DNA of 64,000 bases from an uncultured Prevotellaceae bacterium (lineage in GTDB: Bacteria > Bacteroidota > Bacteroidia > Bacteroidales > Muribaculaceae): positions 30,128-94,127 of the forward strand of contig ONYP01000001.1 of NCBI GenBank assembly GCA_900322135.1, given 5' to 3'. Below the pieces are notes generated by a model, which had not been told where the DNA came from, ran no database searches, and saw only the letters and a list, made by a program, of their open reading frames with translations. Below are positions 7,236 to 43,275 of the stretch, piece after piece (the first letter of the stretch is position 1; the number at the start of each line of letters is the position of its first letter). Position numbers and translations under genes: made by a program.

Positions 7236-7261
7236 GTTCTATTTACTGCAAGATGAATCGG

Positions 7262-7546: not shown

Positions 7547-7639
7547 ATTATATCAAACCTTGCCCAGATAAACAACTTATTAGACTATCTTTATCAGTGA
7601 CATTGTCACATAATTGACCTTACAGCCCTTATGGTCATG

Positions 7640-7786
7640 CTATGCTGCCAGTGCTGCCAAGCGGCTTGAGGCTTGACTGCCATTAGAGTACCAATGGTAC
7701 TTTTTCTCGCTGATTACCTCATCAAACTCGTCGAGTTCAGCCTTCTTGCCTTCAATCATATAATTTGAAAACACATAATTTGCCAT
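7640..7786 (-). CDS. Very small protein or gene remnant, 48 aa
   Basis: The frame opens at 7786 (MANYVFSNYMIEGKK) and closes at 7640 after a short Ser/Ala-rich tail. The first ~30 residues look genuinely coding and acidic, then the sequence degenerates, so this may be the 5' stub of a once longer gene. It follows the gene at 7847-8728 on the same strand at about 60 nt. Confidence 0.35.
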   Translation of the reverse strand: MANYVFSNYMIEGKKAELDEFDEVISEKKYHWYSNGSQASSRLAALAA

Positions 7787-7846
7787 ATCTGTACTATTAT
7801 TTTATTTATTTGATGTTATTTCCAACAAAGATGCTTGCCCCTCTGG

Positions 7847-20867: not shown

Positions 20868-20929
20868 TAAAAATCATAAACCATTTCAGGATGGAGAATC
20901 ATCACTATCCTTTTTAGACTTGCGTGTAT

Positions 20930-23242: not shown

Positions 23243-23404
23243 GCGAAGAAACAGACGGAGCCTTACAACCGTTTCCTTGAACTGCAGAAGATGGCAGTCA
23301 TCAAACTTGCTGTGTTTGTCAAGACCATCTTGATGGTCAAGTGCACCAGCATCAGCTTCATCGACAGCACCCTGTTGAGGTATAGCCCTATTGTCACCAG
23401 ATGA
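23243..23404 (+). pseudogene. IS982-like transposase fragment
   Basis: The 53-codon plus-strand frame reads 'YNRFLELQKMAVIKLAVF' and then 'KCTSISFIDSTLLR'. This resembles the region around the first catalytic aspartate (SFIDST) in IS982-family transposases of Bacteroidota. Both ends of the protein are missing. It overlaps the end of the convergent HExxH protease gene by 11 nt, marking the downstream edge of the large operon. Confidence 0.55.
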
Positions 23405-24113
23405 AGAGGTGCTGCAGCACCCACCACAGGGCGGTGGAAACATTCTTGCTGCTCCAGAACGAGACCGCGATGACATTGATGTTGAAAACAGCCCACAGGG
23501 CGATATACATCAGCGGGAACCAGAGTGATGGGAAACGGTTGATGTCGGTCTGGTAGAGGCGCGTCTCGCGGGCAAAGCAAACCAGGTGGAAGCCTAGCGT
23601 CAGCCCGATAAGGATATCAAAGAGCCATGTGTTGTGCCAAGCGATGAGCGTGCGCAGTGCCAGTGCGATGTAAGTGAGGAAAGGCAAGGTATAAGGCGCC
23701 AACGACACAAACGGACGATTCCAGTCAGAGCCGCTGGTGACCACCTGTCCGGTATTCTCCTCGACATGGAACGACTGCACGCGGCGCCCCGTGAGGATGC
23801 CGACGAGCGTGTGTGAGAACTCATGGGACAAAGTCTCCATGAAGTTAAATGTCGAGCGCAGGGTCCGGCTATGCCGCACCAGGAATTTGCGGGTCAACAG
23901 ATAGGCGAAAAATCCTATGGCAAACCACCAATAGAGCCCGATGTTGAATTGCTTGAACAAATTGGGCCAACTCAACCTGTCCCAAGAGAAGTGCTGCCAG
24001 TCGGGGAGGATGATGTGCTCGACCACGATAACCCATGTCTCACGCAGCAGCAAGGCCAGCAAGACGGCCATCACGACACACCACAGGTAAATTCTCAGCT
24101 TATTCTTCATCAC
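23394..24113 (-). CDS. Multi-TM HExxH metalloprotease (M50-like)
   Basis: This 239-residue integral membrane protein has about six hydrophobic segments. A 'LSHEFSHTLVGILTGR' segment carries the zinc motif H97-E-F-S-H101, next to a membrane helix as in site-2-type (M50B) proteases. A 'VVTSGSDWNRPFVSLAPYTLPFL' region follows, as in M50 proteins with a second metal ligand nearby, but I cannot name the ligand. It is the last gene of the nine-gene operon, 14 nt after the muramidase gene. It may cleave a membrane-anchored partner of the system, or may simply regulate envelope stress; that is inference. Confidence 0.75.
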   Translation of the reverse strand: MMKNKLRIYLWCVVMAVLLALLLRETWVIVVEHIILPDWQHFSWDRLSWPNLFKQFNIGLYWWFAIGFFAYLLTRKFLVRHSRTLRSTFNFMETLSHEFSHTLVGILTGRRVQSFHVEENTGQVVTSGSDWNRPFVSLAPYTLPFLTYIALALRTLIAWHNTWLFDILIGLTLGFHLVCFARETRLYQTDINRFPSLWFPLMYIALWAVFNINVIAVSFWSSKNVSTALWWVLQHLFIW

Positions 24114-24126
24114 TGGTTATTGACTA

Positions 24127-24939
24127 TTACAACATGATGTCGTCGATGGTCGTTCCGTTCTCGAAGCGGTCGAGGTCCACATACTCCTTGATACCATCGA
24201 CCTTGCCGCGCTCGGTATACTGCCAGATGTTGTACTTTCCCCCACCCCTCAGCGTTGGCACATTGCTGCCATAGCGCGCGATGAAGATAATGCACTTGTT
24301 GAAATCGGGCGCGAGCAGGTCGTTGTAGAACTTGTACTGGCTATAGAGCACAGGATACTTGCCATAGTCGGCCTTGACCAGCTCCATAAACCGCCACAGG
24401 CGCCGCTGCAAGTCATCACGCTTGGCCCTGCTGTTGCCGGCTTCCTCGACATCAACCATGGGAATGAGGTCCTGCTCTCCTTTCTTCACCTGACGCTTGA
24501 AATTCTTGTACTGCTCTTCAGGAGTCTTGTAACTGTTGAAGAAATGATAGCTTCCTACCAACAGACCGTTTTTCCTGGCCTGGTCGAAATTTTTACGGTA
24601 ATTCTTATCTACTGCCGAAGCGCCCTCGGTGGCCTTGATATAGACAAACTGTATCTTCTGGTCCTTAGCCACGCGTTCCCAGTCGATTTTGCCCTGGTGC
24701 TTCGATACATCGATGCCGTTGTACTTGGTCGAGACCACCGTGGTGCGATGCTTGCGTCCCACATCGACCTTGTGATACACGACGGCAATGGCACCCAGGG
24801 CCACGAGCGCGAGCACAAACTCAAGTTGGTGGGCCTTGAAGCGGCGCTTGAGGCGCCGCCACCACGCTTTGAGTGGCGACACCCGTTTGCGGCGCGTGCG
24901 ACGGCGCTTAGATCCTTTTCTTCTGGATTTAGTGCTCAC
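24127..24939 (-). CDS. Membrane-anchored GH25 muramidase
   Basis: This is a 270-residue protein. The first ~38 residues are extremely basic (Lys/Arg-rich) and cytosolic, then one membrane helix (about 41-57), then a GH25 lysozyme domain: 'GIDVSKHQGKIDW', 'FVYIKATEG', 'SYHFFNS', the catalytic DxE in 'PMVDVEEAGN', and 'YSQYKFYNDLL'. GH25 enzymes cut the glycan strand between MurNAc and GlcNAc, so it would act in the periplasm as a type II-anchored enzyme. It starts 4 nt after the PBP-like gene, which supports a shared peptidoglycan job. Confidence 0.92.
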   Translation of the reverse strand: MSTKSRRKGSKRRRTRRKRVSPLKAWWRRLKRRFKAHQLEFVLALVALGAIAVVYHKVDVGRKHRTTVVSTKYNGIDVSKHQGKIDWERVAKDQKIQFVYIKATEGASAVDKNYRKNFDQARKNGLLVGSYHFFNSYKTPEEQYKNFKRQVKKGEQDLIPMVDVEEAGNSRAKRDDLQRRLWRFMELVKADYGKYPVLYSQYKFYNDLLAPDFNKCIIFIARYGSNVPTLRGGGKYNIWQYTERGKVDGIKEYVDLDRFENGTTIDDIML

Positions 24940-24942
24940 GAA

Positions 24943-27711
24943 TTAATAGTAATTCTTAGTCATGTCATAGAATTTGCGCAGTCGAGCCTTACCTTGTGAG
25001 CTCGAGAAGAACTGGTGGGCATGCTCTGATTTCAATCCCCAGTAATGCTCACAAGCAGAACAAGGTTTGCCAGGGCGGCAACGGTTACACTCATAGGTGC
25101 GCGAAATCCTGATGACGCAAACGATACCCTTGGAAGGCTTGTCCTTCAGGATGCATTCCTGATAGGTTTTATCCTTGGTCAGGACAAAGCAGTACATACC
25201 AATGTCCATCTTCCTGACATGGCCACCTAACAGAGGGATGTCAATAGGTGGATTATAGGCGTCGGGTGTACCCGTTTTGGAGAAGACAACAAGTCCCTCG
25301 TTCAAGCCATCAACAGCAGTCTTCATGGGGCCTAACAAACCACCGGTCTGTGCCATCTTGAACTCGTTCAAGAATGAATTCCATGCCTTTTTGTAGTCGG
25401 TCCCATCAACAAATGTGTGCAACGAGTCGTTGACAAGCGAGGGGAAGACCGTATCCTGAGGATAGCGGATAAATGAGGCACTCACAGCACGCTTGCTGAC
25501 CATGCGTGCCCAGGCCTCGGCAAGTTTCACACTGTTCCACATGTTGTCTCCTTGGCCTAAAGTCCAGGGCACGAGCAACGCGCGGAAATCCTCACCGTCA
25601 TCAAAGCGGTCGATATGCAGCTGGGTGGGTTCCGGGGAGACCTCGCGCAAACCATAGACGCGTTCATCCCAATTCTTCATGCCTGCTACCAACTGGCGGA
25701 ACAGGTTGATGTCGGTCGTGCGGTTATAAAGCGCATCGCCAGCACTCTCACGGATATTGACATCATACAAAACCGAGAGGTTGTGGATAAACGGCTGGTT
25801 CTCAAGGACCAGCTGGTCCTCGTTCTCGTTTTTGAATCTCAAGAAACCGCCATTGCCCCTATCGGTGAAATAGGATATGCTGCCATTGACAGGCAACTGC
25901 GTTGTGGTGCCGCTAGCCTTTTCATCACTCAGCGCCAGAGCTGCCAGAGCGACCGGATAGACATCGTCGGAACGGCTCAAGAATTCAGCGAAATTGCAAC
26001 CGCCCCAGTGAGAAGATGAGCCCTTGGCCCACGCATGTGTCTGCCTGCCAAAAAAGGTCGCCTTATTGTTATCAAAGTCAGGCATTCCATACCGAGCCGG
26101 ATTCCTCGTGTCCATGTTGACCAATGAGGGGATGGCCAGGACGGCTGGCAGTGCGACCATCGGCTTAAAAGTCGAGCCCACCGAGCGGCGGCTCAACGAC
26201 GGATTGCGCGTGGTCAGTTTCAACATCTCGGGGAAGTCGGCCTTGTCGAACAAAGTGGTATAGAACGGCGATGCCAGCACCTCGCCCGTAGCCATGTCCA
26301 TGATGGTCACCGACATGTCGTATTGTTCCTTGACCTGTGAGTTGGGTTTTTGGGCATTTATTGTCTTGCGCAGTTGGACCACATAATCCTTGATTTCGCT
26401 CTCAAACTCGCGTGAAAGCAACGGGTCGATAGTGAGCCTGACAGTATCCACATTCTCGCGGTTGGACAAGTGCTGCGACAGTCCCTGCAGCAGCTGCTGG
26501 GTGAACAGGTCGGTCTGGTAGTCCGAAATGTAGAAACGGTCCACCCCCACACTGGACTGCGTCAGGTAGGACAGCATCTGTATGGGGTTGCTCTTGGACA
26601 AGGTAATCTCGCCCAACTTCATGCTCAGGTCATTATCCTGAACGGTATACATCAAGATTTTCATGCCGTCCTCAAAGTCGACATTAGTGACATCGGTACC
26701 CCTGACATTGTTCAGGTACTTACAGGTCTTCTTGCTATCGACCACCAGCAATCCGCACGAGTGGGTAATCCTCAGCTTGCCCTTGGAGTAGGCCATGGTG
26801 ATGTCGGCTTTCACGCCCGGCTGTCGGGATTCCTGCATCCTGATGCGGATGTTATGGGAACGGCCGCGGTCGTCAAATGCAGCCTTGTAGTAGCTGTAAT
26901 AATCGATGGATTCCGGCTTGCCTTCACTCTGCCCTGACTCGACAGGACGCGTCCACAGCAGGATGCCCTCGTTCATGATGGCATTGAAGTTGATGGGATG
27001 GGCCGTGTCGAGCACCGAGTCGTTGTGGATGGGCAGCACGCTATTGCCGTAAGTCAAGAAGATGGTGCCCGGATCGCTGAAGATGCAATTCTGTGTCCCC
27101 ACGATGACACCCGTCCACGGCGTCTTGGTCATCTTCACTTTGAACATGGAGGGAATCAGCGAGATAGATTCAATCTTCACCGGCCGCACTTGTGCAGTGT
27201 TATTATTGCGCTTCTTCTTGTCGGGGGAATAGCCCGTGCAGCGGATGTCGAAGTAACTCTCACCCAAATGCTCGGCCTGACGCTCCAGCAATTGCGGCAA
27301 GCGGCTGTTGTAATAGAACCGCCTGAGGCTCTCGTCCTTGATAAACTCGGGATGGATGCCCACAAGCCTGAGGTTGCTGGACTCGATAAAGGCACCGCCT
27401 TCCTCGCCGAAAGGCAAGGCAAACTCCAAGGCCTTATAGCGTTTATTCAACGACGCGAGGTCTATCGCCTCTACTGCCGTGTCGGCGCAGGCGGGCGACA
27501 GCAGCAGGCTCAACACTGAATCGGCCTTGGTCACAAAGCCGGCCCCGTTCTCTTGGGGGTCATAGGTGTCATTGTCGGCTGCACGGCCCAGTGCTGTACA
27601 CTGCTTGAAGAAAGACAGGCCGATGGCGAGCACCAGCAATGTGGGCGCAACCCAATAGACCATCCTTTTTCTCCACTGCGGCAGTCCTCTGTTGGATAAT
27701 GTCGGTTCCAT
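24943..27711 (-). CDS. Penicillin-binding-protein-like transpeptidase (PBP2-type fold)
   Basis: This 922-residue protein has one N-terminal membrane helix (about 18-36) and a ~440-residue periplasmic region. A PBP transpeptidase domain follows: 'LTIDPLL', 'TIMDMATGEVLA', the SxxK motif at S513-T-F-K516 (in 'VGSTFKPM') and K812-T-G-T815. The second motif, normally SxN, reads S581-D-D583, so it is altered or the enzyme is specialised. The C-terminal tail has a cysteine cluster ('CNRCRPGKPCSAC'), unusual for a PBP. It would crosslink, or merely bind, peptidoglycan stem peptides in the periplasm. The operon partners are a SEDS-like protein and a muramidase. Confidence 0.85.
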   Translation of the reverse strand: MEPTLSNRGLPQWRKRMVYWVAPTLLVLAIGLSFFKQCTALGRAADNDTYDPQENGAGFVTKADSVLSLLLSPACADTAVEAIDLASLNKRYKALEFALPFGEEGGAFIESSNLRLVGIHPEFIKDESLRRFYYNSRLPQLLERQAEHLGESYFDIRCTGYSPDKKKRNNNTAQVRPVKIESISLIPSMFKVKMTKTPWTGVIVGTQNCIFSDPGTIFLTYGNSVLPIHNDSVLDTAHPINFNAIMNEGILLWTRPVESGQSEGKPESIDYYSYYKAAFDDRGRSHNIRIRMQESRQPGVKADITMAYSKGKLRITHSCGLLVVDSKKTCKYLNNVRGTDVTNVDFEDGMKILMYTVQDNDLSMKLGEITLSKSNPIQMLSYLTQSSVGVDRFYISDYQTDLFTQQLLQGLSQHLSNRENVDTVRLTIDPLLSREFESEIKDYVVQLRKTINAQKPNSQVKEQYDMSVTIMDMATGEVLASPFYTTLFDKADFPEMLKLTTRNPSLSRRSVGSTFKPMVALPAVLAIPSLVNMDTRNPARYGMPDFDNNKATFFGRQTHAWAKGSSSHWGGCNFAEFLSRSDDVYPVALAALALSDEKASGTTTQLPVNGSISYFTDRGNGGFLRFKNENEDQLVLENQPFIHNLSVLYDVNIRESAGDALYNRTTDINLFRQLVAGMKNWDERVYGLREVSPEPTQLHIDRFDDGEDFRALLVPWTLGQGDNMWNSVKLAEAWARMVSKRAVSASFIRYPQDTVFPSLVNDSLHTFVDGTDYKKAWNSFLNEFKMAQTGGLLGPMKTAVDGLNEGLVVFSKTGTPDAYNPPIDIPLLGGHVRKMDIGMYCFVLTKDKTYQECILKDKPSKGIVCVIRISRTYECNRCRPGKPCSACEHYWGLKSEHAHQFFSSSQGKARLRKFYDMTKNYY

Positions 27712-27762
27712 AATTCTTGTGTTTATAGTCCTTGTGGGAAAACAGTCCCGTAGATTTATAGA

Positions 27763-30420
27763 TTAATACGGCAGATTGATGATTTTATCCTTGGGCAGGT
27801 GTGTGTCGATGTAATTGATGACCTTGAAATAGTAATCGGCAGGCAAGGCGGTCACGGTCTGCCCACCCAGCAACGAGTCGCTGGGGATGGCAAAGGTCAC
27901 ACCCTTGCCCAGCACGGTGATGCTGTCCACCTTGAACACCCTGGCGGTCATCATGTCATACAACGAACACTTCTTGCTGATGACTCTAGGGACATCGGGC
28001 TGGAACTCCTCGACATCGGACAGCGGACTGATGCTGAGCCTGGCCGAGTCCATCTGCTCCAGCGACTGCAACGACATCTTGTTCCATGCTTGCAGGAAAT
28101 GCAAGTCCTTGCGCACACTGTCCATCGACAAGGTGAGCGAGTCCATGTACACCTCATTGATGCTGTCGGGCAAGGCTGCCAGCATCAGCATCATGTTCTG
28201 TTTCTCCCGAGGCAGGAATTTGACAATGTAACTTGACTCGGATGCTGTGGGAGCATTGCCATCACCCTGGTACATCATTTTATACCCTAAAAATCCCAGG
28301 GCGCCACCCAGTACAAGGCCCAACAGTGCACCCAACAGGAGCGACTTAATGCCGCCGCTTCTTGATAATTTCATCATATTCTCTAATTCTATTGCTTTTT
28401 CGTTATCTATCTTCTTTAAACACTCAAGGAACAACTCGACGAGGCGGTTGGGTTCATGTCCGCCGGAACCATCCTCGAGCGGCGTATAGTAGTTGGTGAC
28501 CGGGGCGACCAATGCGTTGACCTGGTCATTTCCAGCATTTTCCAAATCGCTGACAAAGGCCTCCTCGATGAGTGCAAACACCTTAGGCGCATGTTCCTCG
28601 ACGGCAGCGAGTTTGTCCCAATTCTTCACATCCAGCATGAACGATGGTTTCCACTTGCCGTTCTGGCCGAACAGGAATTCATTGACAGCGGGCTTGACCA
28701 TGTCCTTGAAGTCGCTCCAGTATTTTGCCAGCCCTTTGGACTTATCGAGCAACACCTCAATCCGGTCGACCTGAGATGCCTCCCTGACGCCAGCAAGCAG
28801 CGACATGAGCGTCGAGCGGTCCATATTCTTGAGGCTCTCGGCCTTCATCTGGTCATAATCATCTCCCGACTTGATCGTGGTCAGCAGGTCAATGACCTCG
28901 CCCAGATTCTTGAACGAGACCCCCTTGGAAGCATCGGCAATCCACTTCTTGACGAGTTCGGCCTGATTATCCTCCAGTTCACGGGTCGAGGGTATGCTCT
29001 TGATGGTCGCAGGCTTGCGGTAGGCCTCAACAGGGACGAAGGGATATCGCGCCATGAATGCGACAATCTGCTTGATGTCGGTGAGTTGAGAGGCATGGGT
29101 CTTGAGCAGGCGTGCAAAGGCTTCGGTCACTCCAGGCTCTTTCAGTCGTTTATGCTTCTTGTAGATTCCATACCACCTCTCGACCGAGCCGATGCTAGTG
29201 AAATTGAGGCTCTCGAGATACTTGGCGTTCAGTCCGTCGAGCATGTCGTCGGGGACCCCGTCGGCAAACAGGAATCCGAACTTGTCATTCTCCAGATACT
29301 CCTGCAGGGCACGGCGTTGCAGCATGAGGCGTTCTTTGTCGTCATAGGGCTGGGCATTGTTGACGGCACTGAACAATTCCTGGGTCAACCCGTCGATGTC
29401 CCACTTGAGCGACGCGGCATGGTACAACATGGCAAACTGTTTCTTCACCGCTCCGTTCATCGAGCCGTAATAGGTCTTGAACTGTTGCCAGTTGGCCGGG
29501 GCGACCTCGTTCAGTTTATGCCCCATCTTCAACCAGGTATCCCACTCGTTGTCCTTGAGTTTAGAGACATCCTTGTTAAACACGCTGTAGGCCTTCAACA
29601 TGTCCTCGGCAGTCATCAACGGCTCATTGGCGCCGGGATAAGGAAATACCGTGGCCAGGCTAGACTGCTGCGGCGAGAGGGAAATCCTGCGGGAAACCAC
29701 CTCCTGCCAGGTCATGGGCAGGTCGTTTTCTCCAGGCTTGATGGAACAGCCCGCACGATAGAAAACGACAGGCACGCCATCCAGTACAGGCTCAAAATTC
29801 TCGTCCACGCAGAAGGCGAAAGTGGCATAGCGCCTCAGCTTGATGTCCATGTTGTCGATGGCCGACAGCACGGTGTCCATTTCCAGACACTTGAAAATGC
29901 CGTCCTCGCGCCATGAGCCATCCCCTTTGGGCGTGATTTCCACCATCAGCCTCTTTCCGGTCACGATGGCAGCCATGATATTGTGAGCCAGCGTTGAAGA
30001 GTTGGGGCCTGCAGGCATGATGCGTTTTTCCTCGACCACAGTTTCCAGGTCCACGCGGCCATAGGTCATCGTAGCGATGCGCGGCAAGGCCGCAAACAGT
30101 GATGTGAGGCTGAAACCGATTTTGTTCATGTCATCGCGTGAGACCTCATATCCAGCCCTGAAGGGGTAGTAACGCCCCATCGATTCACTCACGACCTGAG
30201 AACCTTGCACATGAATCAGGATGTAGCGGTCAAGGCCGTGGTTATATCTCCAAACCAGGCTGGCATGTTTCTGGGACAGCACTGGCGGGTTGTCGATGAA
30301 CCATCCGCTCAAGGATTTATTGAAATCGCTCACTTCACCCGTGTAGAACAGGGTGCCGTCACCGATTTGGTCTTTCTTTGCGCCCGATGCGCGTTTGGGT
30401 ATATTGATGGTTGTTCTCAT
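27763..30420 (-). CDS. Large TM-anchored protein, candidate GAP1-like GTPase partner
   Basis: This is an 885-residue protein. Residues 1-~690 are cytosolic: an N-terminal beta-rich part opening 'MRTTINIPKRASGAK' and a long helical middle. A Gly-rich membrane helix (about 690-712, 'LLGALLGLVLGGALGFLGY') follows, then a ~170-residue periplasmic tail. Its size, the helical middle and the location 8 nt after a GTPase gene fit the 'GTPase-associated protein 1' that accompanies double-GTPase (DO-GTPase) systems. I base this on architecture only and cannot confirm homology by eye. It would link the cytosolic GTPases to the periplasmic cell-wall enzymes. Confidence 0.6.
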   Translation of the reverse strand: MRTTINIPKRASGAKKDQIGDGTLFYTGEVSDFNKSLSGWFIDNPPVLSQKHASLVWRYNHGLDRYILIHVQGSQVVSESMGRYYPFRAGYEVSRDDMNKIGFSLTSLFAALPRIATMTYGRVDLETVVEEKRIMPAGPNSSTLAHNIMAAIVTGKRLMVEITPKGDGSWREDGIFKCLEMDTVLSAIDNMDIKLRRYATFAFCVDENFEPVLDGVPVVFYRAGCSIKPGENDLPMTWQEVVSRRISLSPQQSSLATVFPYPGANEPLMTAEDMLKAYSVFNKDVSKLKDNEWDTWLKMGHKLNEVAPANWQQFKTYYGSMNGAVKKQFAMLYHAASLKWDIDGLTQELFSAVNNAQPYDDKERLMLQRRALQEYLENDKFGFLFADGVPDDMLDGLNAKYLESLNFTSIGSVERWYGIYKKHKRLKEPGVTEAFARLLKTHASQLTDIKQIVAFMARYPFVPVEAYRKPATIKSIPSTRELEDNQAELVKKWIADASKGVSFKNLGEVIDLLTTIKSGDDYDQMKAESLKNMDRSTLMSLLAGVREASQVDRIEVLLDKSKGLAKYWSDFKDMVKPAVNEFLFGQNGKWKPSFMLDVKNWDKLAAVEEHAPKVFALIEEAFVSDLENAGNDQVNALVAPVTNYYTPLEDGSGGHEPNRLVELFLECLKKIDNEKAIELENMMKLSRSGGIKSLLLGALLGLVLGGALGFLGYKMMYQGDGNAPTASESSYIVKFLPREKQNMMLMLAALPDSINEVYMDSLTLSMDSVRKDLHFLQAWNKMSLQSLEQMDSARLSISPLSDVEEFQPDVPRVISKKCSLYDMMTARVFKVDSITVLGKGVTFAIPSDSLLGGQTVTALPADYYFKVINYIDTHLPKDKIINLPY

Positions 30421-30427
30421 AACACAT

Positions 30428-31852
30428 TTATTGATTGCTATTGAAATAGTTCAGCGTCTCGGTCAAATCATTCTTCAGGCTTGACGGCAGACAGTCATTC
30501 TGCCCCAGCAGGTCCATCAGGAGCTGCAGCGAGCCCCAGCAGGCATGCCGGGTCATATCAAGGTTTGTCTCGTGGACAAAGGACTTGACGACCTGCCCGT
30601 TGTCAAGGATGAATCGTGTCACATCACTCGGGTCATTCTGATAGATTTCCAGATCAGCGTCGATAGGCGTTGCCGTGAAATGGACATGGGGCGGCAGGGG
30701 CTTATTGTCGACAGGGTCAAGAACCTTTTTCTTTTTACGCATCAGGCTCTTGGACAGCAACTCCCTGAATGCAAAGCCATTGCTCCTGCCAGCACTGAGG
30801 CAGATGCGCTCGGCCATCTCCTTGCCAAGCCAACCGCCGTCGTCGGCAGCAAGCGCCGGCACCAACTCGTCGATGAATCGCGAGTAGGCCTGATTGCGCC
30901 TTGACACCTCGCTCACGGCAGCGGCGCCGAGGGCATCCTTATAGGAGTCTATCTTGCCGCCAAGCAGGATATCGGTATTGCGGTAGGCAAGATACACATT
31001 AGGGGCATGGCCGGTGAGCTTGTCCAAGTAATGGCCCACCTCGAGCGACAATTGTGCAGTGCTCTCGTGGGCATCGATATTGTCACAGATAATCAGGTCG
31101 GTTGCATTTTGGCAATAGGACAACGGATAGAAATGCTTGATGACATTTTCATCATAGTGGGTCAGGTCTTCGGGCCGTCCCGTTAATGTGTTCCAGTTTT
31201 CAAGCAGGCAGAGCCTCACCGAATCGGTCAGGATTTCTGAAAGACGCGAAAACAGTTCAATTCCCGAAATGTCGTCACGGCTTCCTGTTTCCTGATAATC
31301 GCCCTCGTCCAGCACAGCACGAATATTCTCCCAGCTCATATACTCGACATGGCGCACACGGCCAGCGACAGGCACAGCAGAATAACCCGACAGGTTGAAT
31401 TCACGGCTGGGCAAGACGAGCTTGATTTCATGGCCCGACGGGGCCCGGTAAGTCGTCAGGAAAAACAGGCCATGCTTGGCACGCTCAATCTTTTCCTTGA
31501 GGGCAAAATAGTCCTTAATGACATCCATGTCGCTGAAAGCCTCTCCAGGGATATTCAGGAAATTCACCCACAGGTCCACGCCGCGCTTGTGCGACATATG
31601 CGCCCCGTAATGGCTTTCGGGGCGGCTGGCATACACCTCGGTACCCTTCATGCCGCCAGTGTCGGCATTGAAGGTGTCATAGAAGAAGGTGCCGAAACTG
31701 CTGTAATTATAATTCAGGGGCAGCTCCTGCGGCCTGTATCCCAGCACATGGAACGCATGTATCAAGTCAAACAGCAAGTAACTCTTGCCGCTGGATGGCG
31801 CGCCAATGACCGCGATGCTCAGTTGTTTGGACAATAGACTCATAGTCGTCAC
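30428..31852 (-). CDS. P-loop GTPase-like protein A (double-GTPase type)
   Basis: This is a 474-residue cytosolic protein. The P-loop is G17-APSSGKS24. A G3-like element, 'LNIPGE' at about 99-104, stands where DxxG is expected, and a G4-like 'YRNTD' (N292, D294) stands where NKxD is expected. The paralog at 31871-33547 has the same three deviations in the same order ('LNIPGE', 'FRNVD'), so the pair forms a distinct family of TRAFAC-like GTPases. There is no membrane segment. Paired GTPases beside a large partner protein are the hallmark of DO-GTPase systems. The gap to the next gene is 8 nt, so translation is probably coupled. Confidence 0.75.
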   Translation of the reverse strand: MTTMSLLSKQLSIAVIGAPSSGKSYLLFDLIHAFHVLGYRPQELPLNYNYSSFGTFFYDTFNADTGGMKGTEVYASRPESHYGAHMSHKRGVDLWVNFLNIPGEAFSDMDVIKDYFALKEKIERAKHGLFFLTTYRAPSGHEIKLVLPSREFNLSGYSAVPVAGRVRHVEYMSWENIRAVLDEGDYQETGSRDDISGIELFSRLSEILTDSVRLCLLENWNTLTGRPEDLTHYDENVIKHFYPLSYCQNATDLIICDNIDAHESTAQLSLEVGHYLDKLTGHAPNVYLAYRNTDILLGGKIDSYKDALGAAAVSEVSRRNQAYSRFIDELVPALAADDGGWLGKEMAERICLSAGRSNGFAFRELLSKSLMRKKKKVLDPVDNKPLPPHVHFTATPIDADLEIYQNDPSDVTRFILDNGQVVKSFVHETNLDMTRHACWGSLQLLMDLLGQNDCLPSSLKNDLTETLNYFNSNQ

Positions 31853-31870
31853 ATGAGAGAGAAAACAGGT

Positions 31871-33547
31871 TTAACCGATATCACAGATGCGTTGCAGCAT
31901 GGCACCGTAGTCAAACGAGCCGATGTCGTGGCTGTTGAAGATATCCATGCACAACTGGTAGCTGCCGAAGCAGGCACGCGAGCCCATGTCGCCGAACTTG
32001 ACCGAAGAGCCCTCACGATAGAAGTCATACTCGTCCTGGTCGGGGTTGCTCTTGAGTCCGTTCTTGTAGACACGGTAGTCCTCGGTGATGGGCGTGCAGG
32101 CAAAAAAGACATGGGGGACAAAGGAGTCATTGCTCTCGGGCATCCATCCTGTCTGTGCCAACAGCATCCTGAAGGCCTGGCCCTGGCCGCCGATTCTCGC
32201 CCTGATATGGTCCTCAAGGTTATCGGCATTGAAGACATGGTCCTCACTGCCCTTGATGTCGATATAGCGCTGCTTGAGCTGCCTGATGAAGGCCTTGTCG
32301 ACCTTGTCGCTTTCCTTCTGCGCCTTCTTCTCTTCCTTTTCCTCATTGTCATCGCCGTCCACCTCGGTGTCCTCATCATTGCTCATCTTGAAGAGAGCAT
32401 CCTCGTCAATGCCCAAGATGTGCTCCATCGAGCTTCCCATGTCACGCATGTCATACCCGATGTGGTCAAACATCAGGTAGGTGAACAGCGAGTAGATGAT
32501 ATTGCGACGATGGTCGGGCGACAGGCCCCGGTCCTTCAAGCGCTGATTGAGTTGCATATAGGCTCGCTCCACATCAGCATCCTGAAGCAGGAAGTCGACA
32601 TTCCTGAACACCATGTAAACCTTGATTTGATTGGCCAACTTCTCGGCATCGAGGAACTGCGACAGCTTCACGGTCAAGTCATTAAAACCGATTTTCTCGT
32701 TCTGCTCCTCGGCCTTGCGGTCGAGATGGGTATACACCCTGTCACAGATGACGATATCGGTGGCCAGCGTGCAATAGTGGAAGAAGACAAAGCTCAGGTC
32801 ATACTGATTCTCCTCAAAGTCCACTGCCTCGAAACTCAAGTTAGGGAATACCTTCTTCTCGATGAGGTTGTAGATGCTGCGCATGACCGAGTCGGTATCA
32901 TACTTGAAGAAGTTGAGCATCAATTCATCACCGCGGATGTCTTTCTGTCCCTGGTCCTTGAAGCGGGCCACATCAAGTTCCCTGTAGATTTCACCCCATG
33001 GCTTGAAACGCTGCAGATAGGCGTCCTTGCCCGATGAAGAGGGAGCTGTAACCGTCTGGTCTTCTTCCAGCTTGCAGACCTTGGCATTGGGCTTGACAAT
33101 CCAGCGGGTCTCACCGGCGGGGTTGACATAGGTGTGAACGGTGAACAGTTTCTTCTTGGCCGAGAGTTGGCCTTTCAGCTCAATGTAACACTGCAGCATA
33201 TCCTCTCGGAAAATTTCACCAGGGATATTCAAGAAACTCAGGTCAAACTTGAAATCGGGTCCTTTAACCAGCTGCCCATAGTGGTCCTCGTGGCGGCAGG
33301 CGTACAATGGCGTCTGACCTCCGCTGCCTTTCTGGTTGGGCGCGTAGTTGCTGAATGGCTTATACTGGAAGCCATCCTCGGATTCCAATGATTCAGAAGT
33401 ATAGAATGCGCAGTTCATGCTACGCAGGGCGTCGATGATATCCTTCAGCAAGAAGCTCTTGCCGCTGGAAGCGTTGCCCACAACGGCGAGACGGATGCAC
33501 TTAGGCAAGAATTTCTTGCGAAGCGGTTTTGGCAAATTGATATTCAT
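31871..33547 (-). CDS. P-loop GTPase-like protein B (double-GTPase type)
   Basis: This is a 558-residue cytosolic protein. The P-loop is G24-NASSGKS31, G3-like NIPGE is at 107-111, and G4-like is 'FRNVD' (N316, D318). A charged, Glu/Lys-rich insertion lies at roughly residues 385-410 and is absent from protein A. It is otherwise collinear with the protein at 30428-31852, including the 'SxFKDIRGDEL' region and the C-terminal 'ACxGSxQLxMD' segment, so the two arose by duplication. The gaps are 28 nt to the upstream gene and 19 nt to the downstream gene. It is likely a regulatory switch or assembly NTPase; nucleotide specificity is not shown. Confidence 0.75.
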   Translation of the reverse strand: MNINLPKPLRKKFLPKCIRLAVVGNASSGKSFLLKDIIDALRSMNCAFYTSESLESEDGFQYKPFSNYAPNQKGSGGQTPLYACRHEDHYGQLVKGPDFKFDLSFLNIPGEIFREDMLQCYIELKGQLSAKKKLFTVHTYVNPAGETRWIVKPNAKVCKLEEDQTVTAPSSSGKDAYLQRFKPWGEIYRELDVARFKDQGQKDIRGDELMLNFFKYDTDSVMRSIYNLIEKKVFPNLSFEAVDFEENQYDLSFVFFHYCTLATDIVICDRVYTHLDRKAEEQNEKIGFNDLTVKLSQFLDAEKLANQIKVYMVFRNVDFLLQDADVERAYMQLNQRLKDRGLSPDHRRNIIYSLFTYLMFDHIGYDMRDMGSSMEHILGIDEDALFKMSNDEDTEVDGDDNEEKEEKKAQKESDKVDKAFIRQLKQRYIDIKGSEDHVFNADNLEDHIRARIGGQGQAFRMLLAQTGWMPESNDSFVPHVFFACTPITEDYRVYKNGLKSNPDQDEYDFYREGSSVKFGDMGSRACFGSYQLCMDIFNSHDIGSFDYGAMLQRICDIG

Positions 33548-33574
33548 GAGTCGTATGATGATTGATAAGGTGAA

Positions 33575-36500
33575 TTAATTCGTTTCGTTTTTGTCCCTGG
33601 CGGTGACAGTGCCCATAAAGGCCAGCAGGAAAGCAGTCTCGAGAGCCTCGCCCACGGCATCGACACCGAATCCGGGATTCAGGCGGCCGGTGAAGGGGAG
33701 CCAGTCAATGTAGGAGAAATAGATGTACAGGCTGGTGCCCACCCACATGAACATGGCTAGCAGGCGCCATTGCATCGTGCGCGTCAGTCGCGGCTTGGTG
33801 CGGTCAACATAATCGATGGTGTGACGCATCACAATCCACATCAGGAGCGCCAGCAGCGAGAAGTAGACCACATGGGTCAAGAAACCGTGATAGGAGCCGA
33901 AGAAAGCGATGGGCACGCTCAAGTCGTTGAGGGCTACGGGTGACTGCCCGGAGCTGACTGAGGGGTGCATGAAGTGGGCCTCGTTGGACAGCGGGTCGCG
34001 GTCAGCACGGCCCAGGCTGTCGCCCTGCATGTAGTGGCTCATGATGACCATAAACTCGGCATCGCTCTCGCTGTAACGGTAACCGCTGCGCTGCAAGTCG
34101 TCGAAGTTGGAGTAAAGCATCACACGGCGCGACATGCGGCTGTAATCCACATTCTCGGGGTTGAATGCCTTGCTGCAGATAACGGGCAAGAGCCAGACGA
34201 ACAGGCAGACCACAAGCAGTGTATAGGTCACCCACTTCTTCTCGTTGCGTGTTTCCTTGCCCGCAAGACGGCTGGTATAGACCTGCGGACGCTTCACCAT
34301 AAAGAAGAAGGCGATCATGCACATCACGAAACCCAGGAAGTTGGTCATGTAACCATTGTCACCCACCATCGCGCCGATGGTGTAAGCAATGACGATCAGC
34401 AGCATCTGGGCCAAGATGGTATAGCGGGGGCGGGAGGATGTGGATGACAACTCGGCTGCCGTTACCGACAAGGCTCGACTCAACCCGACAATCACGCCCA
34501 AGGTGATAAACGCGGTGCCAAAGTTACCCATTGTCGTGCCGGCAATGATGATGGCAATCAACAACAGGAAGTGGCTCGGGAACAAGACCTTCAACATACC
34601 GATAAAGGCATCATAGACAAAGTCCAGCACGACAACAGCAATACCCACCACCAGCAACATGAGCAAGAGGATGCCGGGAATGCCGGGCAACGGCGTTATC
34701 CATGCTATCAAGCCGTAAAGCAGCATGATTGCCGCTATAGCCAGCACAAGAGCCAAACGGCTTGCTGCAGGCTGGAATTTGTCGGGAACTGAATTGTGGA
34801 GCATCTTCTCGACACGCTTGTACTGGCTGAGGGACTGCAGCTTGCCAATGCCTTGACCGACAAGGCCATCAAGCCATGAAACCATCTTGTTCCACTTGTC
34901 CACCAGAGTCTTGCACAAGCCCAAGACGGCTTTATGGGCTACATTCAGAATCAGCCATAGGGCGAGGGCCACCGCCTCGATGAGGAAGAGGGTATAGACT
35001 ACCGAGCGGTGGGTATCATTCACACCGACCGCTGCTTTGCTGGGCCAGTGCCAGAATTTCCAGATGAAAGTCTCGGAGCGGAAGTAGGAATCAAGCACCG
35101 AACGGCTCACCTGATTGTCGAGCATGACAAAGAACGCATACAGCAAGACAACAAAGATGAATGCACACATGCCCCAGGCGAACCATAGCGGGAACAGATT
35201 CTTCTTGAGCCTGCCGCGACGGTCTTTCTTCATGACATTGCGGTGCAGCAACTGCGTGTTGAGCAACATTGCCACTGTAAAGAACAGCAGCATCAGTGCA
35301 GCAGTGGCAACAGGGGTGATACCCGTCAGTTTTTCGAAGTAGGGGTAGGTATAGCTCAACTTGATGGCAATCATCGACTTGCACACGCAGTAGAGCATGC
35401 ACATGACAAGTAGCAGCGACAAGTAACCGCGATAACGCTTCAATTGCTCCGGGTTGTGGCTATTCTGCAGGACGACCTTGGAGACTTTCAACGGACTCCA
35501 CGGCAGCCAGATGGTGAGCATGAGCATGACGAAGACGAATAACGGCAGCCACAGGTAGGAGAGGAAAAAGCCCTGATGGATGAAACCAACGCGTGCATGC
35601 AGCAGGTCGTTGCCCGAGTGCAGGTCTACCCTGGTGAACGCCGGAACCACCGAGAAAGGCAGGGGCGAAGTCTTGGGATTCTGGACCAATGCGGTCTTGA
35701 AACTGTTGTCACGGATGACCACCGAATCATTCTTGTGGGATAACTCGATATTGCACAGGTCGAAGTTGATGGCATTGGAAAATGCCGGCAGGTACAGGTC
35801 ACTCTTGTTGGGGAAAGAGTTGTTGTTCTGCTTGAGCGTGATGATGCCGCTCGACTGGGCCGACTTGGAACGCAACGAGTCCACCGTGCCCACAAATGTG
35901 ATGGGCTTGGGGAAAGACAACACCATCGATTTATCATGCTTGCCCGGGGTAATCATCACATGGCCAGCGCCCCACTCGGTGAGTTTAACCGAGGCTTTCA
36001 TCACATGGTTCACGCCTTCGATCTGGAATGTGCCATCCTCGGGCGACTTATCCAGATAGCAATGTGTGCCCAGTGTGTAGAACTGCACCTTGATATGGTT
36101 GGCCTCAATGCCCTCGTTGGATGTGGTATCGGTCCTGACGAAGCCATGGGTGACCTCTTTGCCATCTTTGTCAGTCTCCTTGACCTGGGTGAGTTCATCA
36201 AGAATAATGAGGCTCATCACGCCATCGTCGTTGTCAAAGAACGAGCGCACATTGTGGCATTGCATCTGATTGAGGTACAATAACTTGAGGCTATCTGACG
36301 CCGCAATGCTGTCATTGGCCAGGGCAAAATTGGTCGCAAAGTGGCGCGCCATGACCTGTTTCTGCTTGGGGAATCGGCTCTTCCAAGCCTTCCACACCTC
36401 CTTGCCGGTAACAGTTAACAGCACGGTGTCACGATAGCTGGTGGGCAAGTTCAGGATGATGCGCTGCGAGTCGTCGTTGCGAATGATAAACTTATTGGGG

Positions 36501-36790
36501 TTATGGTTGTTGATCTTGATATACTGCAACGAGTCGTGATACTGGTCATTGACTTTCCATCGGTAGTGGTTGCCCTCCTTCCAGACGGTGAGGTAATCCT
36601 TGGGGACATTATTGTAAAAGACATCACTGTTCTGGCCTATCGTCAGCGTGTCACGGTTAGCCAGTTCAATCTGGTCGATGACCAGGACCATCTTCTTGTT
36701 GATCTTCCCGGTCATGAACAGGCACGCCAGCAACAGCAGGATGGCCGCCCCGATGGCAATGTAATTGGTAAACGGTGTTTTAGTGTCCAT
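33575..36790 (-). CDS. Giant polytopic membrane protein with SEDS (FtsW/RodA)-like C-terminus
   Basis: This is a 1071-residue protein. One N-terminal helix (about 9-27) is followed by a ~380-residue periplasmic region, then about 13 membrane helices. Near the end, 'ND' (N955, D956) plus 'IAFFGSYHGFL' lies before a helix, and 'WLPFTGRLNPGFG' (1030-1042) lies before the last helix. These line up with the SEDS signatures '(T)DFIFAxxxEELGFxG' and 'GLxPxTGxxLPFxSxGG', including the acidic residue needed for glycosyltransfer, though the second motif is degenerate. SEDS proteins polymerise peptidoglycan with a PBP2-type partner, and a PBP-like protein is in this operon. Even if it is not catalytic, a SEDS-derived fold is my best reading. 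Confidence 0.65.
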   Translation of the reverse strand: MDTKTPFTNYIAIGAAILLLLACLFMTGKINKKMVLVIDQIELANRDTLTIGQNSDVFYNNVPKDYLTVWKEGNHYRWKVNDQYHDSLQYIKINNHNPNKFIIRNDDSQRIILNLPTSYRDTVLLTVTGKEVWKAWKSRFPKQKQVMARHFATNFALANDSIAASDSLKLLYLNQMQCHNVRSFFDNDDGVMSLIILDELTQVKETDKDGKEVTHGFVRTDTTSNEGIEANHIKVQFYTLGTHCYLDKSPEDGTFQIEGVNHVMKASVKLTEWGAGHVMITPGKHDKSMVLSFPKPITFVGTVDSLRSKSAQSSGIITLKQNNNSFPNKSDLYLPAFSNAINFDLCNIELSHKNDSVVIRDNSFKTALVQNPKTSPLPFSVVPAFTRVDLHSGNDLLHARVGFIHQGFFLSYLWLPLFVFVMLMLTIWLPWSPLKVSKVVLQNSHNPEQLKRYRGYLSLLLVMCMLYCVCKSMIAIKLSYTYPYFEKLTGITPVATAALMLLFFTVAMLLNTQLLHRNVMKKDRRGRLKKNLFPLWFAWGMCAFIFVVLLYAFFVMLDNQVSRSVLDSYFRSETFIWKFWHWPSKAAVGVNDTHRSVVYTLFLIEAVALALWLILNVAHKAVLGLCKTLVDKWNKMVSWLDGLVGQGIGKLQSLSQYKRVEKMLHNSVPDKFQPAASRLALVLAIAAIMLLYGLIAWITPLPGIPGILLLMLLVVGIAVVVLDFVYDAFIGMLKVLFPSHFLLLIAIIIAGTTMGNFGTAFITLGVIVGLSRALSVTAAELSSTSSRPRYTILAQMLLIVIAYTIGAMVGDNGYMTNFLGFVMCMIAFFFMVKRPQVYTSRLAGKETRNEKKWVTYTLLVVCLFVWLLPVICSKAFNPENVDYSRMSRRVMLYSNFDDLQRSGYRYSESDAEFMVIMSHYMQGDSLGRADRDPLSNEAHFMHPSVSSGQSPVALNDLSVPIAFFGSYHGFLTHVVYFSLLALLMWIVMRHTIDYVDRTKPRLTRTMQWRLLAMFMWVGTSLYIYFSYIDWLPFTGRLNPGFGVDAVGEALETAFLLAFMGTVTARDKNETN

Positions 36791-36815
36791 ATCTTAACTT
36801 GTGCGGTTTTACTTC

Positions 36816-38651
36816 TTAATCAAACGCATTGTTCAAATCCTCTATCAAGGTGTTCAGCTTACTGATAATATCCTCATACTGCGAGTCTTTATCATGTTCA
36901 CGCATGTGTTCAAGCAGTGATTCGGCCTCATCCCTCAGTTTTTTCATTGAAGATGCAAGTTCAGCAACCCTATCTCCATCAAACCAACTGAAGTTTTTCC
37001 AGTTGCTATAACTACTAATCAAGTCATTGCCTTGACTGACAAAAAGGTTGGTGCAACTGCTATAGGCGCCATAGGCAGCATCGCTAAGCTCGTCATTCAA
37101 TGGAATATCATTGCTGTAAGGATAACGGTCGGCGCACCGCTCAGCGGCACCAACAACATACTTCACATCACTCAATGAGGTACAATCATAGGCCATATCG
37201 ATGACTTTCTTGATTGTATCGGTGTAGCACACCAGGTAATCCCTGTATTGCTGGCAATCGCTGGCGTTTTCCTTATTCAGATTGTGGCGGTGGTTGTTCA
37301 ATTCACGCAACTGCGACATAGCCTTGTTGATGAATTCAGTATCGGACGACCAATTGCCGTTTTCAAAGAACACCTGCATCTTGGTCTTCATGATTTCGGC
37401 AAAAGCGTTGCACAATTTCTTGTCACAACGGTTATAGACCGAGTCGGGCAGCAACGGGGTCTTGTCCTTCAACCTGATGCCGTGTTCAGCCTCGAGGTCG
37501 ATGCGCAATCGGGTGTAATTGTCGCTGGCACTGGCATAGGGGGTGCCACTAGCCAAACTGTTCCTGACATCAGCACTGAAGTCGGCCGAGTAGTCATAGG
37601 GGAGCAGTGTCCTCGTGGGCGGGGTGTCTATCGCGTTGAGGACAAAATAGCCGGCAACGCCCAACAGCACCAGCGCTAACATAGCGATAGCGACAGCCAT
37701 CTTCTTGCTGCCCAACTTCAACAGTTTAAACAGGCCCCAGTGATTGTGCTCACACTTGGGGAGGATGTACTCCTCACACAGCCGACGCGTGTGGTCGTGC
37801 TTCAACCGGGCATAATCCTTTAACACAAAGTCGCCCACGCTGCACGCTACAGGCTGCTCGTTATAGATGTAGGCTTCCTTGCACTTGTTGCGTATCAGAC
37901 GCCAGAAACCCGACGCCATCGATGTTGTCACCAGCGTCTGCACAGCATTGTCCCAGTAGAGTTCCGGGACATTCATCAGGTCGGCCTTGGTCACCAGGAC
38001 ATATACTCCCGATGCCTGCTGCAGATATCCTGCCCTGATGAGCAACTCGGTCACGCGCTTATGGTCGGCGACCTGTGCGTCGATATCCTGTCGGCAATCG
38101 ATGCAGAAGAGGTGTATCTGGCGGCTATTGGCCGCCAAGAGTTCATTGACATGAATCCAATTCTCGATACCGCATTCCACAAAGGTGAGCGGATAGTTGC
38201 GCATCCCTTTCCTGTAGCGGGCGTGATAGGTCTCCACCAGAGGGGAATCCATACCCAACAGGCGCTGATAACCGTCCTCGCGGCTGAACATGCCGGTCAT
38301 CGACTGGATGCGGCTGGCGATGTCCTGGGAATTGTTGTCACGGCCCTTGGGCAAGACTGGCGTCATCCCCTCGAGGGTCAACAGCGACGCGATGACCGAG
38401 GACTTACCCGACGAGCGGGCACCCCACAGCACGATGAGATTGCCGGAGTCATAGTCTTCATAGATTCCGCCCGGCTGAATCGATGCCGCAACGCCATGTG
38501 TCGACAGGTTGCACAGGTTGCCGGCAATATCGTCACCCAGCACAGCGGAGAGCTCCCTTGTGTCGATAACCTTCTCGGCCAGCAAATCCTGGATAGCAGC
38601 TACCGTACAATTGTTGCGGCTGAAAAGTATTTTCTTGATTTCGGCTTTCAT
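36816..38651 (-). CDS. Membrane-anchored P-loop GTPase-like protein
   Basis: This 611-residue protein has a P-loop G77-ARSSGKS84, a G3-like 'VECGIEN' near 158-164 lacking the usual Asp, and a good G4-like 'VTKAD' (220-224), so GTP binding is likely. One membrane helix (about 317-339) separates the cytosolic NTPase half from a ~270-residue, coiled-coil-like periplasmic half with several cysteines. This topology could pass a nucleotide signal across the membrane. TssM of type VI secretion has a comparable outline but is larger, and no other T6SS gene is here. It begins 21 nt after the 277-aa membrane protein gene. Confidence 0.7.
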   Translation of the reverse strand: MKAEIKKILFSRNNCTVAAIQDLLAEKVIDTRELSAVLGDDIAGNLCNLSTHGVAASIQPGGIYEDYDSGNLIVLWGARSSGKSSVIASLLTLEGMTPVLPKGRDNNSQDIASRIQSMTGMFSREDGYQRLLGMDSPLVETYHARYRKGMRNYPLTFVECGIENWIHVNELLAANSRQIHLFCIDCRQDIDAQVADHKRVTELLIRAGYLQQASGVYVLVTKADLMNVPELYWDNAVQTLVTTSMASGFWRLIRNKCKEAYIYNEQPVACSVGDFVLKDYARLKHDHTRRLCEEYILPKCEHNHWGLFKLLKLGSKKMAVAIAMLALVLLGVAGYFVLNAIDTPPTRTLLPYDYSADFSADVRNSLASGTPYASASDNYTRLRIDLEAEHGIRLKDKTPLLPDSVYNRCDKKLCNAFAEIMKTKMQVFFENGNWSSDTEFINKAMSQLRELNNHRHNLNKENASDCQQYRDYLVCYTDTIKKVIDMAYDCTSLSDVKYVVGAAERCADRYPYSNDIPLNDELSDAAYGAYSSCTNLFVSQGNDLISSYSNWKNFSWFDGDRVAELASSMKKLRDEAESLLEHMREHDKDSQYEDIISKLNTLIEDLNNAFD

Positions 38652-38672
38652 TTCGTATCAATCATTATCACA

Positions 38673-39506
38673 TTAGGCGTGGCCTCCCTGGAACCTGCTC
38701 TTGGCACGCAGACATTGAATATAATAAGTGAGTATCAGCAGGCAGCACACGAGCATCGCGACAGTGCTCAGCCAATCGGGAGTGCGCGGTGTGGTGAACT
38801 GCTGGTAACGGCTCTTGATGTCATCACTGGTCATCGAGAAAGGCTCACATTTCTCACCCTCATAGATAAGGCTTGACACCGAGGCATACTGCCCTATCCA
38901 GTCATCACTGGCCGTGAGGATGTAGCGCAGGTTCTTGGCCGTGGCGATGTTCCATACATTCACATGGCGCAGCCCGTCGAGCCAAGCCTTGCGCTCCTCG
39001 CGCAGAGTCGACAAGTCCTGGGGCAGCAGACGGCGCTTGAGGCTCGCAGTCTTGAGGCTCACCGCATGGCGGTCGTTATTACTGCTTTTCTTGAGGGTGC
39101 GCTCATAATCCTTGAGCCGCTGCTCGGCATAGTCGAGATAGGCCGTGTCGATGCGGCCTGCATTGTCACGAGCCTCAATAACGAGCTTGTCGATTTCCTC
39201 CTTGTGGTCCACGACATAGATGAAATGCGAGAACGGAGTCCTGCCAAAATAAAGCAGCAAGGCTGCCACCAGCAGCGAAAAGATCTCGATGACGAAGCCC
39301 TTGTGTTTCTTCCTGGTAGACTTGCCCCAGCAAGCCAACCAGATGCAGAGTCCCAACAAGCCCGCACCACCCAGGCAGATGAGCACAGCGACCAAGTGAT
39401 TGCCCTCGAGCAGATACTCCAAGCCCATGAAGGCAAAGAACACAAACACCAGCAGCGAGAGAATCGTTAACAGTAAAGCAAGTCCTGAAGAACCTGATTT
39501 GAACAT
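38673..39506 (-). CDS. Four-TM membrane protein, first gene of the operon
   Basis: This 277-residue protein has three membrane helices near the N-terminus (about 8-28, 38-58, 72-90), a ~155-residue helical periplasmic region with a 'TAYLDYAEQRLKDYERTLKK' coiled-coil-like stretch, and a fourth helix at about 247-268. I recognise no family. It heads the nine-gene operon and lies 22 nt before the membrane GTPase gene; its periplasmic helix region resembles that protein's in character, so the two may form a complex. Confidence 0.7.
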   Translation of the reverse strand: MFKSGSSGLALLLTILSLLVFVFFAFMGLEYLLEGNHLVAVLICLGGAGLLGLCIWLACWGKSTRKKHKGFVIEIFSLLVAALLLYFGRTPFSHFIYVVDHKEEIDKLVIEARDNAGRIDTAYLDYAEQRLKDYERTLKKSSNNDRHAVSLKTASLKRRLLPQDLSTLREERKAWLDGLRHVNVWNIATAKNLRYILTASDDWIGQYASVSSLIYEGEKCEPFSMTSDDIKSRYQQFTTPRTPDWLSTVAMLVCCLLILTYYIQCLRAKSRFQGGHA

Positions 39507-39620: not shown

Positions 39621-39628
39621 CAAATTTA
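39621..39628 (-). promoter_or_regulatory. -7 box of the nine-gene operon, TAAATTTG
   Basis: CAAATTTA on the plus strand gives TAAATTTG on the minus strand, 115 nt upstream of the first operon ATG at 39506. No clear -33 TTTG is at the usual spacing. This is the only promoter candidate I see for the whole ~16-kb operon, where gene gaps are 3-51 nt. Confidence 0.55.
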
Positions 39629-40272: not shown

Positions 40273-40275
40273 CAC

Positions 40276-43250: not shown

Positions 43251-43275
43251 AACTGATAGCTTGATTTGATGGTTA

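Follow-up and report, generated by a model that had tools for sequence, protein, structure and literature searches.

A conserved but patchily distributed nine-gene operon of Bacteroidota encoding SEDS-like, penicillin-binding protein-like and GTPase-like proteins

Contig ONYP01000001.1 of an uncultured Prevotellaceae bacterium (assembly GCA_900322135.1, placed in the Muribaculaceae by GTDB) contains, in the 64,000-nt stretch analysed here (positions 30,128 to 94,127, hereafter the window), nine open reading frames (ORFs), P1 to P9, all on the minus strand and spanning 23394-39506 (Table 1). The gaps from P1 to P9, in transcription order, are 21, 25, 27, 18, 7, 51, 3 and 13 nt, which reproduces the same-strand coordinates and the 3-51 nt spacing reported in an initial annotation of this DNA, and the nine-gene operon is confirmed as real. 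It encodes a polytopic protein (P3) resembling the SEDS (shape, elongation, division and sporulation) family, a transpeptidase (P7) resembling penicillin-binding proteins (PBPs), a GH25 muramidase (P8), an M50B-like membrane protease (P9), three GTPase-like proteins (P2, P4 and P5) and two further proteins, P1 and P6. With about even confidence, we read the operon as an accessory, membrane-embedded SEDS-PBP peptidoglycan synthase which, together with a muramidase, would be under the control of GTPases. No description of this gene set was found in the open-licence PMC literature, judged by titles and the starts of abstracts.

The gene set, its order, its motifs, two gene fusions and a patchy distribution are observed directly. 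Gene content of the other loci was read with profiles of the nine families. P3, P6, P7 and at least one GTPase of the P4/P5 type are found together, in a nearly fixed order, in all 15 loci which reach past P7, and 10 of these also contain a GH25 gene of the P8 type. P1 to P7 show the same order in L009, L010, L012, L014, L015, L016, L020, L023 and L026; in L017 and L018 the P4/P5 pair is reduced to a single GTPase, and L022, L024 and L025 are divergent forms of the operon. The contig of L019 begins inside P2, and contig ends truncate L011, L013, L021 and L027. Since L009 and L025 are the same loci as those of genomes G007 and G016, respectively, they are no extra evidence beside these. Genome G104, from another class of the phylum, contains P3, a 461-aa ORF, a GTPase match in two frames, P6, P7 and an M50B protease gene adjoining the PBP gene. 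A relative of P3 is present in three of 61 near genomes: three of the 37 belonging to the same genus (own genome included) and none of the 24 others of the order. It is also present in one of 393 genomes drawn from the order (own genome) and in two of 395 drawn from the phylum (own genome and G104). Among 84,980 species genomes, a pattern-based scan picked up at least 19 loci; their labels are Prevotella, Prevotellaceae, Muribaculaceae, Porphyromonadaceae or Bacteroidales, and rumen or omasum is named for eight of these 19. The operon is a conserved but rare and patchily spread gene set, and a lack of conservation elsewhere, which the initial annotation had named as one of two findings that would undo its reading, is excluded.

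Both gene fusions are in L022. Its 729-aa protein joins P1 (residues 2-304, E 8e-37) to the GTPase region of P2 (378-507 and 575-710), and in its 1220-aa protein a P6-type N-terminal domain (7-258, E 3e-35) is followed by a complete P7 (356-1219). These fusions give the best evidence for an action of the cytoplasmic parts on the PBP and for cooperation between P1 and P2. P1/P2, P8 and P9 come and go among loci, as unrelated genes lying together by chance might do; such an explanation has a negligible probability, given an order which holds at P3 identities of 31-71% and in another class, and given the two fusions. L022 also shows, directly 5' of P3, a gene (9279-9893, plus strand) encoding a protein with bacterial SH3 domains (3.5e-19), and L024 shows two GH25-type genes 5' of the operon (5801-8174, plus strand), not one 3' of it. 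Between the window and G007, of the same genus, dN/dS is 0.14-0.26 for P1 to P8, rough ratios since dS (0.95-1.7) is near saturation. With their catalytic residues conserved and a low dN/dS, the enzymes are probably active.

The full-length AlphaFold model of P3 (18-sequence alignment, pLDDT 76, pTM 0.80) shows one helix, a beta-rich domain (about residues 33-404) and then many helices. The stretch of about residues 33-130 (window 36401-36694), also beta-rich, gives weak matches to the FHA fold (probabilities 0.30 and 0.20, E 2.6 and 3.1). In the compact homologue of L012, the model of the membrane part (605 aa, 19 sequences, pLDDT 74.5, pTM 0.81) matches Thermus RodA (6bas) with a Foldseek probability of 0.95, a TM-score of 0.45 on the target and a root-mean-square deviation (rmsd) of 6.6 over 311 columns, and the next probability among the best 50 of 133 matches is 0.16. 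Compared by eye, four blocks of P3 come in the same order as features of SEDS proteins: GNFGTA, likened to SEDS PDLGTA; RRVMLYSNF..GYRYSESD (888-910), likened to the stretch after transmembrane helix (TM) 7; LND956, likened to the catalytic HTD; and RLLA..LPFTGRLNPG (1009-1040), likened to the end motif. D956 and PFTG (1032-1035) lie where the initial annotation placed them. N955-D956 is invariant in 19 of 19 alignment rows, and D956 sits in a large loop, modelled at low confidence, before the helix 965-993. In FtsW, according to PMC10764723, the putative catalytic Asp is in extracellular loop 4 (ECL4), between TM7 and TM8. SEDS profiles scored better forward than reversed in eight of nine hhalign comparisons. 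A ranking of 37 membrane ORFs by hhalign gave 19 SEDS proteins as the top 19 (rank test p 0.003); because the set had just six non-SEDS ORFs and the alignments fell at inconsistent places, this test is not relied on. It is likely that P3 is a SEDS protein or a near GT-C relative; a SEDS identity is plausible but remote.

P7 contains SxxK, SxN-type and KTG motifs in the order of a PBP, with the N of SxN replaced by D, and the STFK and KTGT reported by the initial annotation are at the places it gave. D582 is invariant in 16 of 16 members and varies in the 12-row set which includes G104; the other motif residues, S581 and D583 included, hold in 12 of 12 of those rows. Since D583 is invariant, the SxN position is SxD throughout. 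The transpeptidase family PF00905 scores P7 at E 0.0041 and 16.8 bits by hmmscan, below the cut-off of 22.1, and the pieces of P7 summed (with neighbours in frame) reach 22.5 bits, just above it. The muramidase and the HExxH membrane protease of the initial annotation are both upheld. P8 matches Pfam GH25 at E 9.2e-41 and keeps the DxE D163-V-E165 in nine of nine rows; P9 matches Peptidase_M50B at E 6.6e-10 (39.5 bits, cut-off 26) and keeps HExxH in three of three rows. Only the window, L010 and L084 are known to carry P9. Because an M50B protease recurs beside the PBP in G104, P9 is part of the system in some lineages. GH25, Peptidase_M50B and, weakly, the transpeptidase are the Pfam names obtained for operon proteins; P1 to P6 match no Pfam family above its cut-off, NCBIfam and PADLOC gave only weak matches for the operon proteins, and a viral fold library gave no useful match.

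Like the pairs of SEDS proteins and class B PBPs (RodA-PBP2, FtsW-FtsI), the operon combines a gene for a one-TM PBP with one for a polytopic protein whose ECL4-like loop has an invariant Asp, and the model of the membrane part bears a weak resemblance to RodA. It differs from them in the extra N-terminal helix, beta-rich domain, additional helices and changed motifs of P3, which shows no significant sequence match to them, in the SxD of P7, and in GTPases, P6 and GH25 being encoded with the P3-P7 pair. The cell's own SEDS genes are elsewhere. Since its genome contains two other SEDS genes, the operon set is additional to the cell's own synthases; five other PF00905 matches are also present. 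The actinobacterial cluster pstP-rodA-pbpA-pknA-pknB likewise encodes a signalling switch with a SEDS-PBP pair; there it consists of a kinase and a phosphatase, whereas here it would consist of GTPases, and the kinase gene beside the operon appears interrupted.

P-loops are found in P2, P4 and P5, in agreement with the three P-loop GTPase-like proteins of the initial annotation. P2 shows TK(A)D, with K222 and D224 invariant in 15 rows, one TM near 316-338 (by eye) and a C-terminal domain beyond it. P4 and P5 are paralogues (hhalign probability 100), and PGE, in the Walker B region, is invariant in 17 of 17 P4-type and 13 of 13 P5-type rows; the pair shares paralogy and the Walker B Glu with DO-GTPases. 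In known GAP1-N1 systems (L038 and L078-L080), one of the two GTPases is matched by the P4 profile with a probability of 92.7 and E 4e-7, over a stretch running from the P-loop to PGE. Against the same GTPase, P5 reaches 70.7 over 31 columns, P-loop only, and P2 reaches 80.9 over 52 columns of another stretch. Against the second GTPase of these systems, P4, P5 and P2 give 0.9, 15.2 and 6.7%. PF19993 is weakly matched by five of 17 P4-type members (best E 0.0088); at E <= 0.001 this family is not found in the own genome. Against PDB sequences, the P4 profile has 19 matches at E <= 1, in the P-loop region only, e.g., EngA and LRRK2. A partial resemblance of P4/P5 to double-GTPases is supported. 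The N-terminal part of P6 is expected to be cytoplasmic and its C-terminal domain periplasmic, and P6 has no detectable relative.

The double-GTPase/GAP1 systems of Kaur et al. (2020; PMC7159879) have, like the operon, two paralogous GTPases with PGE and a companion protein, and the GAP1-N2 systems have members that cross the membrane and place domains on its far side: GTPases spanning the membrane, GAP1 proteins with TMs at the C-terminus, and domains facing the wall. The layout of the operon is alike to that of GAP1-N2 systems, yet no GAP1-N1 or GAP1-N2 domain is detected in P6, the DO-GTPase match of the operon is partial, and its output would come from a PBP together with a SEDS-like protein. 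The GAP1-N1 operons of L078 and L079, on Enterobacter and Rhizobium plasmids, contain GASH, two GTPases, EAD1 and caspase genes. An unlikely alternative is a conflict system, for defence or self-killing, in which the GTPase switch would unleash the wall enzymes on sensing an invader or envelope damage, the wall being opened by the muramidase and by synthesis out of balance. It would agree with the likeness of P4 to DO-GTPases, which Kaur et al. (PMC7159879) assign to conflict systems, with the presence in only three of 37 same-genus genomes and with the caspase and EAD1 genes of the plasmid operons. However, no recognised effector is found, the PADLOC matches being weak (best E 0.0015), the catalytic set is as much synthetic (SEDS-like protein and PBP) as lytic, GH25 is missing from part of the loci (see below), and the words RodA, FtsW, SEDS, penicillin and transpeptidase do not occur in the text of Kaur et al. 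(PMC7159879). Of the three functions offered by the initial annotation, a gated wall synthase, a structure assembled through the wall and a lytic defence device, the first fits best, although the three are not separable by sequence.

As a gated synthase, the operon would work as follows, with every enzyme activity, the complex, the topology and the trigger predicted from sequence. P3 would polymerise lipid II, P7 would cross-link the strands, P8 would trim or open the wall at the synthesis site, and P9, where present, would process a membrane component. The cytoplasmic P4/P5 pair would form a double-GTPase-like switch, read by the N-terminal part of P6, which would span the membrane and relay the state of the switch to P7, and P1/P2 would add another GTPase arm, anchored in the membrane. 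In response to stress or attack, wall synthesis or remodelling would thereby be turned on locally, without the cell's own RodA and FtsW. A further, tentative step adds the operon to the Rod system and the divisome as a third kind of peptidoglycan synthase complex. In it, a PBP and a polymerase remotely like SEDS would be controlled from inside the cell by a double-GTPase-like switch acting via P6 as a membrane-spanning adaptor, and would have their own muramidase and membrane protease, the whole forming a patchy, inducible module for wall repair or against attack in Bacteroidota. Should the gated-synthase reading be right, control over wall synthesis would lie with dedicated GTPases instead of the cytoskeleton or kinases, and the double-GTPase family would gain a defined output; a SEDS-like protein missed by sequence searches, a PBP showing SxD for SxN and an accessory synthase in gut bacteria would be further outcomes.

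Several results weigh against this synthase. PF01098 (FTSW_RODA_SPOVE), the Pfam family which the initial annotation had pointed to, is matched by none of 18 P3 members at E <= 1; hhalign of P3 against 31 SEDS sequences gives probabilities of 0.3-7.4%, and the search of PDB sequences with P3 does not establish SEDS. In Foldseek, the full-length P3 model has no match under E 0.001 in PDB (best 0.27) and no SEDS in the best 50 of 160 matches; for the membrane part of L012 none is under E 0.001 either, RodA itself having E 0.98, and no SEDS chain besides 6bas is in the best 50 of 133. The SEDS-like call of the initial annotation is not established by Pfam, hhalign or the full-length model; the structural match it depended on is present but weak. 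In P7, SxD takes the place of SxN, and a comparison of P7 by hhalign with four of the own genome's PBPs gives 0.7-5.2%, so that the PBP call rests on the motifs and a marginal Pfam score; the P7 profile has no match among PDB sequences. The guanine-specificity motif is degenerate in P4/P5, the Asp alone seeming to be kept (by eye), and therefore they may not be GTP-specific. P6 was considered as a GAP1 protein and this is not supported, despite a loose by-eye likeness of aligned blocks: none of 15 members matches GAP1 at E <= 1, the P6-P7 fusion of L022 has no GAP1 match, hhalign against nine GAP1-N1 sequences gives 0.3%, and PF20013 is in none of 99 genomes, the own genome and G104 included. 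The GAP1 domain, for which the initial annotation had proposed a search, is thus not found. Finally, GH25 is not in the sequence covered at five of 15 loci, and P9 is not at most.

The weak sequence link of P3 to SEDS would also agree with P3 being a GT-C_B-fold enzyme for another polymer, similar to O-antigen ligases, or a non-catalytic scaffold, with P7 acting on a non-standard wall substrate. The O-antigen ligase WaaL is in the fold list of the L012 membrane part (TM-score 0.27 on the target, rmsd 14.8), P7 shows SxD, and the end motif of P3 is much changed from what we take to be the SEDS one (GVDxVGE for SYGG). This explanation is improbable, as RodA ranks above WaaL (0.95 vs 0.16), D956 is invariant, and the PBP partner and the muramidase point to peptidoglycan. 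Marginally less probable still is that the genes build a through-wall structure, such as an appendage or a secretion device, for which the wall enzymes would make room. Single-span P2, P6 and P7 with large far-side domains and a muramidase would suit such a structure; against it, no secretion ATPase, secretin, pilin or outer-membrane part is found in the operon or in the subset of neighbours which is annotated.

Table 1. Position of the operon genes, their motifs and neighbouring genes in the window.
Feature	Position	Strand	Description
P1	38673-39506	-	277 aa, membrane protein
P2	36816-38651	-	611 aa, membrane-anchored GTPase-like protein with P-loop
P3	33575-36790	-	1071 aa, N-terminal helix, beta-rich domain, polytopic SEDS-like part
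P4	31871-33547	-	558 aa, GTPase-like, P-loop GNASSGKS and NIPGE
P5	30428-31852	-	474 aa, P4 paralogue
P6	27763-30420	-	885 aa, one TM near 695-715 (by eye)
P7	24943-27711	-	922 aa, PBP-like transpeptidase, N-terminal TM
P8	24127-24939	-	270 aa, GH25 muramidase, N-terminal TM
P9	23394-24113	-	239 aa, M50B-like HExxH membrane protease
Candidate -7 promoter element TAAATTTG	39621-39628	-	5' of P1, pattern scan for TAnnTTTG
P3 GNFGTA (755-760)	34511-34528	-	by eye and short weak hhalign match
P3 Asp956 codon	33923-33925	-	candidate catalytic Asp, ECL4-like loop, equivalence by eye
P3 LPFTGRLNPG (1031-1040)	33671-33700	-	by eye
P7 STFK (513-516)	26164-26175	-	active-site motif, S513 and K516 invariant 16/16
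P7 SDD (581-583)	25963-25971	-	replaces SxN, S581 and D583 invariant 16/16
P7 KTGT (812-815)	25267-25278	-	invariant 16/16
HAD_SAK_2 and BspA-type leucine-rich repeat genes	20322-21508	-	beside operon
Ser/Thr-kinase-like gene	39784-41256	+	divergent, in-frame TGA at 40270-40272
GYF_2 and CD225 protein gene	41466-42377	+	interferon-induced-transmembrane-like
Dockerin type I domain protein gene	47267-47938	-	3.2e-07

As to the single promoter candidate of the initial annotation, one TAnnTTTG, a Bacteroidota -7 motif, is on the minus strand 5' of P1; 46 such words are present in the whole window on both strands. The surroundings of the operon were compared with six relatives of the same genus, read beside the M15 peptidase gene (window 42489-43316). 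In G031, this gene is 316 bp from a homologue (93% identical) of window 14292-16583, and the flanking genes show the order and orientation of the window without the segment of about 26 kb (16584-42488) holding the operon. In G034, the same two flanking genes are 112 bp apart, but on opposite strands, and the other four relatives show neither arrangement. With one clean empty site and three carriers among 37 same-genus genomes, the segment looks like accessory DNA, a claim weakened by the opposite strands in G034, which leave G031 as the sole clean case. No tRNA was found in the window, and no integrase was seen among the annotated genes beside the operon.

Upstream of the operon, the divergent Ser/Thr-kinase-like gene has its in-frame TGA just before the HMDLKP catalytic loop, which points to a gene interruption or to an error in the assembly. 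It was considered as a member of the system and rejected: its kinase domain has no match at E <= 1e-6 in 23 locus records (L005-L027, which include the overlaps L005 = L009 and L007 = L025, with flanks covered at most about 10 kb). Only the C-terminal membrane region of the kinase and the neighbouring GYF-CD225 protein have matches, in L005/L009, and two copies of the latter are beside the operon in G007. GYF proteins are mentioned with some GAP1-N2 systems by Kaur et al. (PMC7159879). On the other side of the operon are the HAD_SAK_2 and BspA-type leucine-rich repeat genes, and in G007 a HAD_SAK_2 gene, 87% identical, also follows the GH25 gene. Beyond the M15 peptidase gene, the window contains a gene encoding a protein with a Dockerin type I domain.

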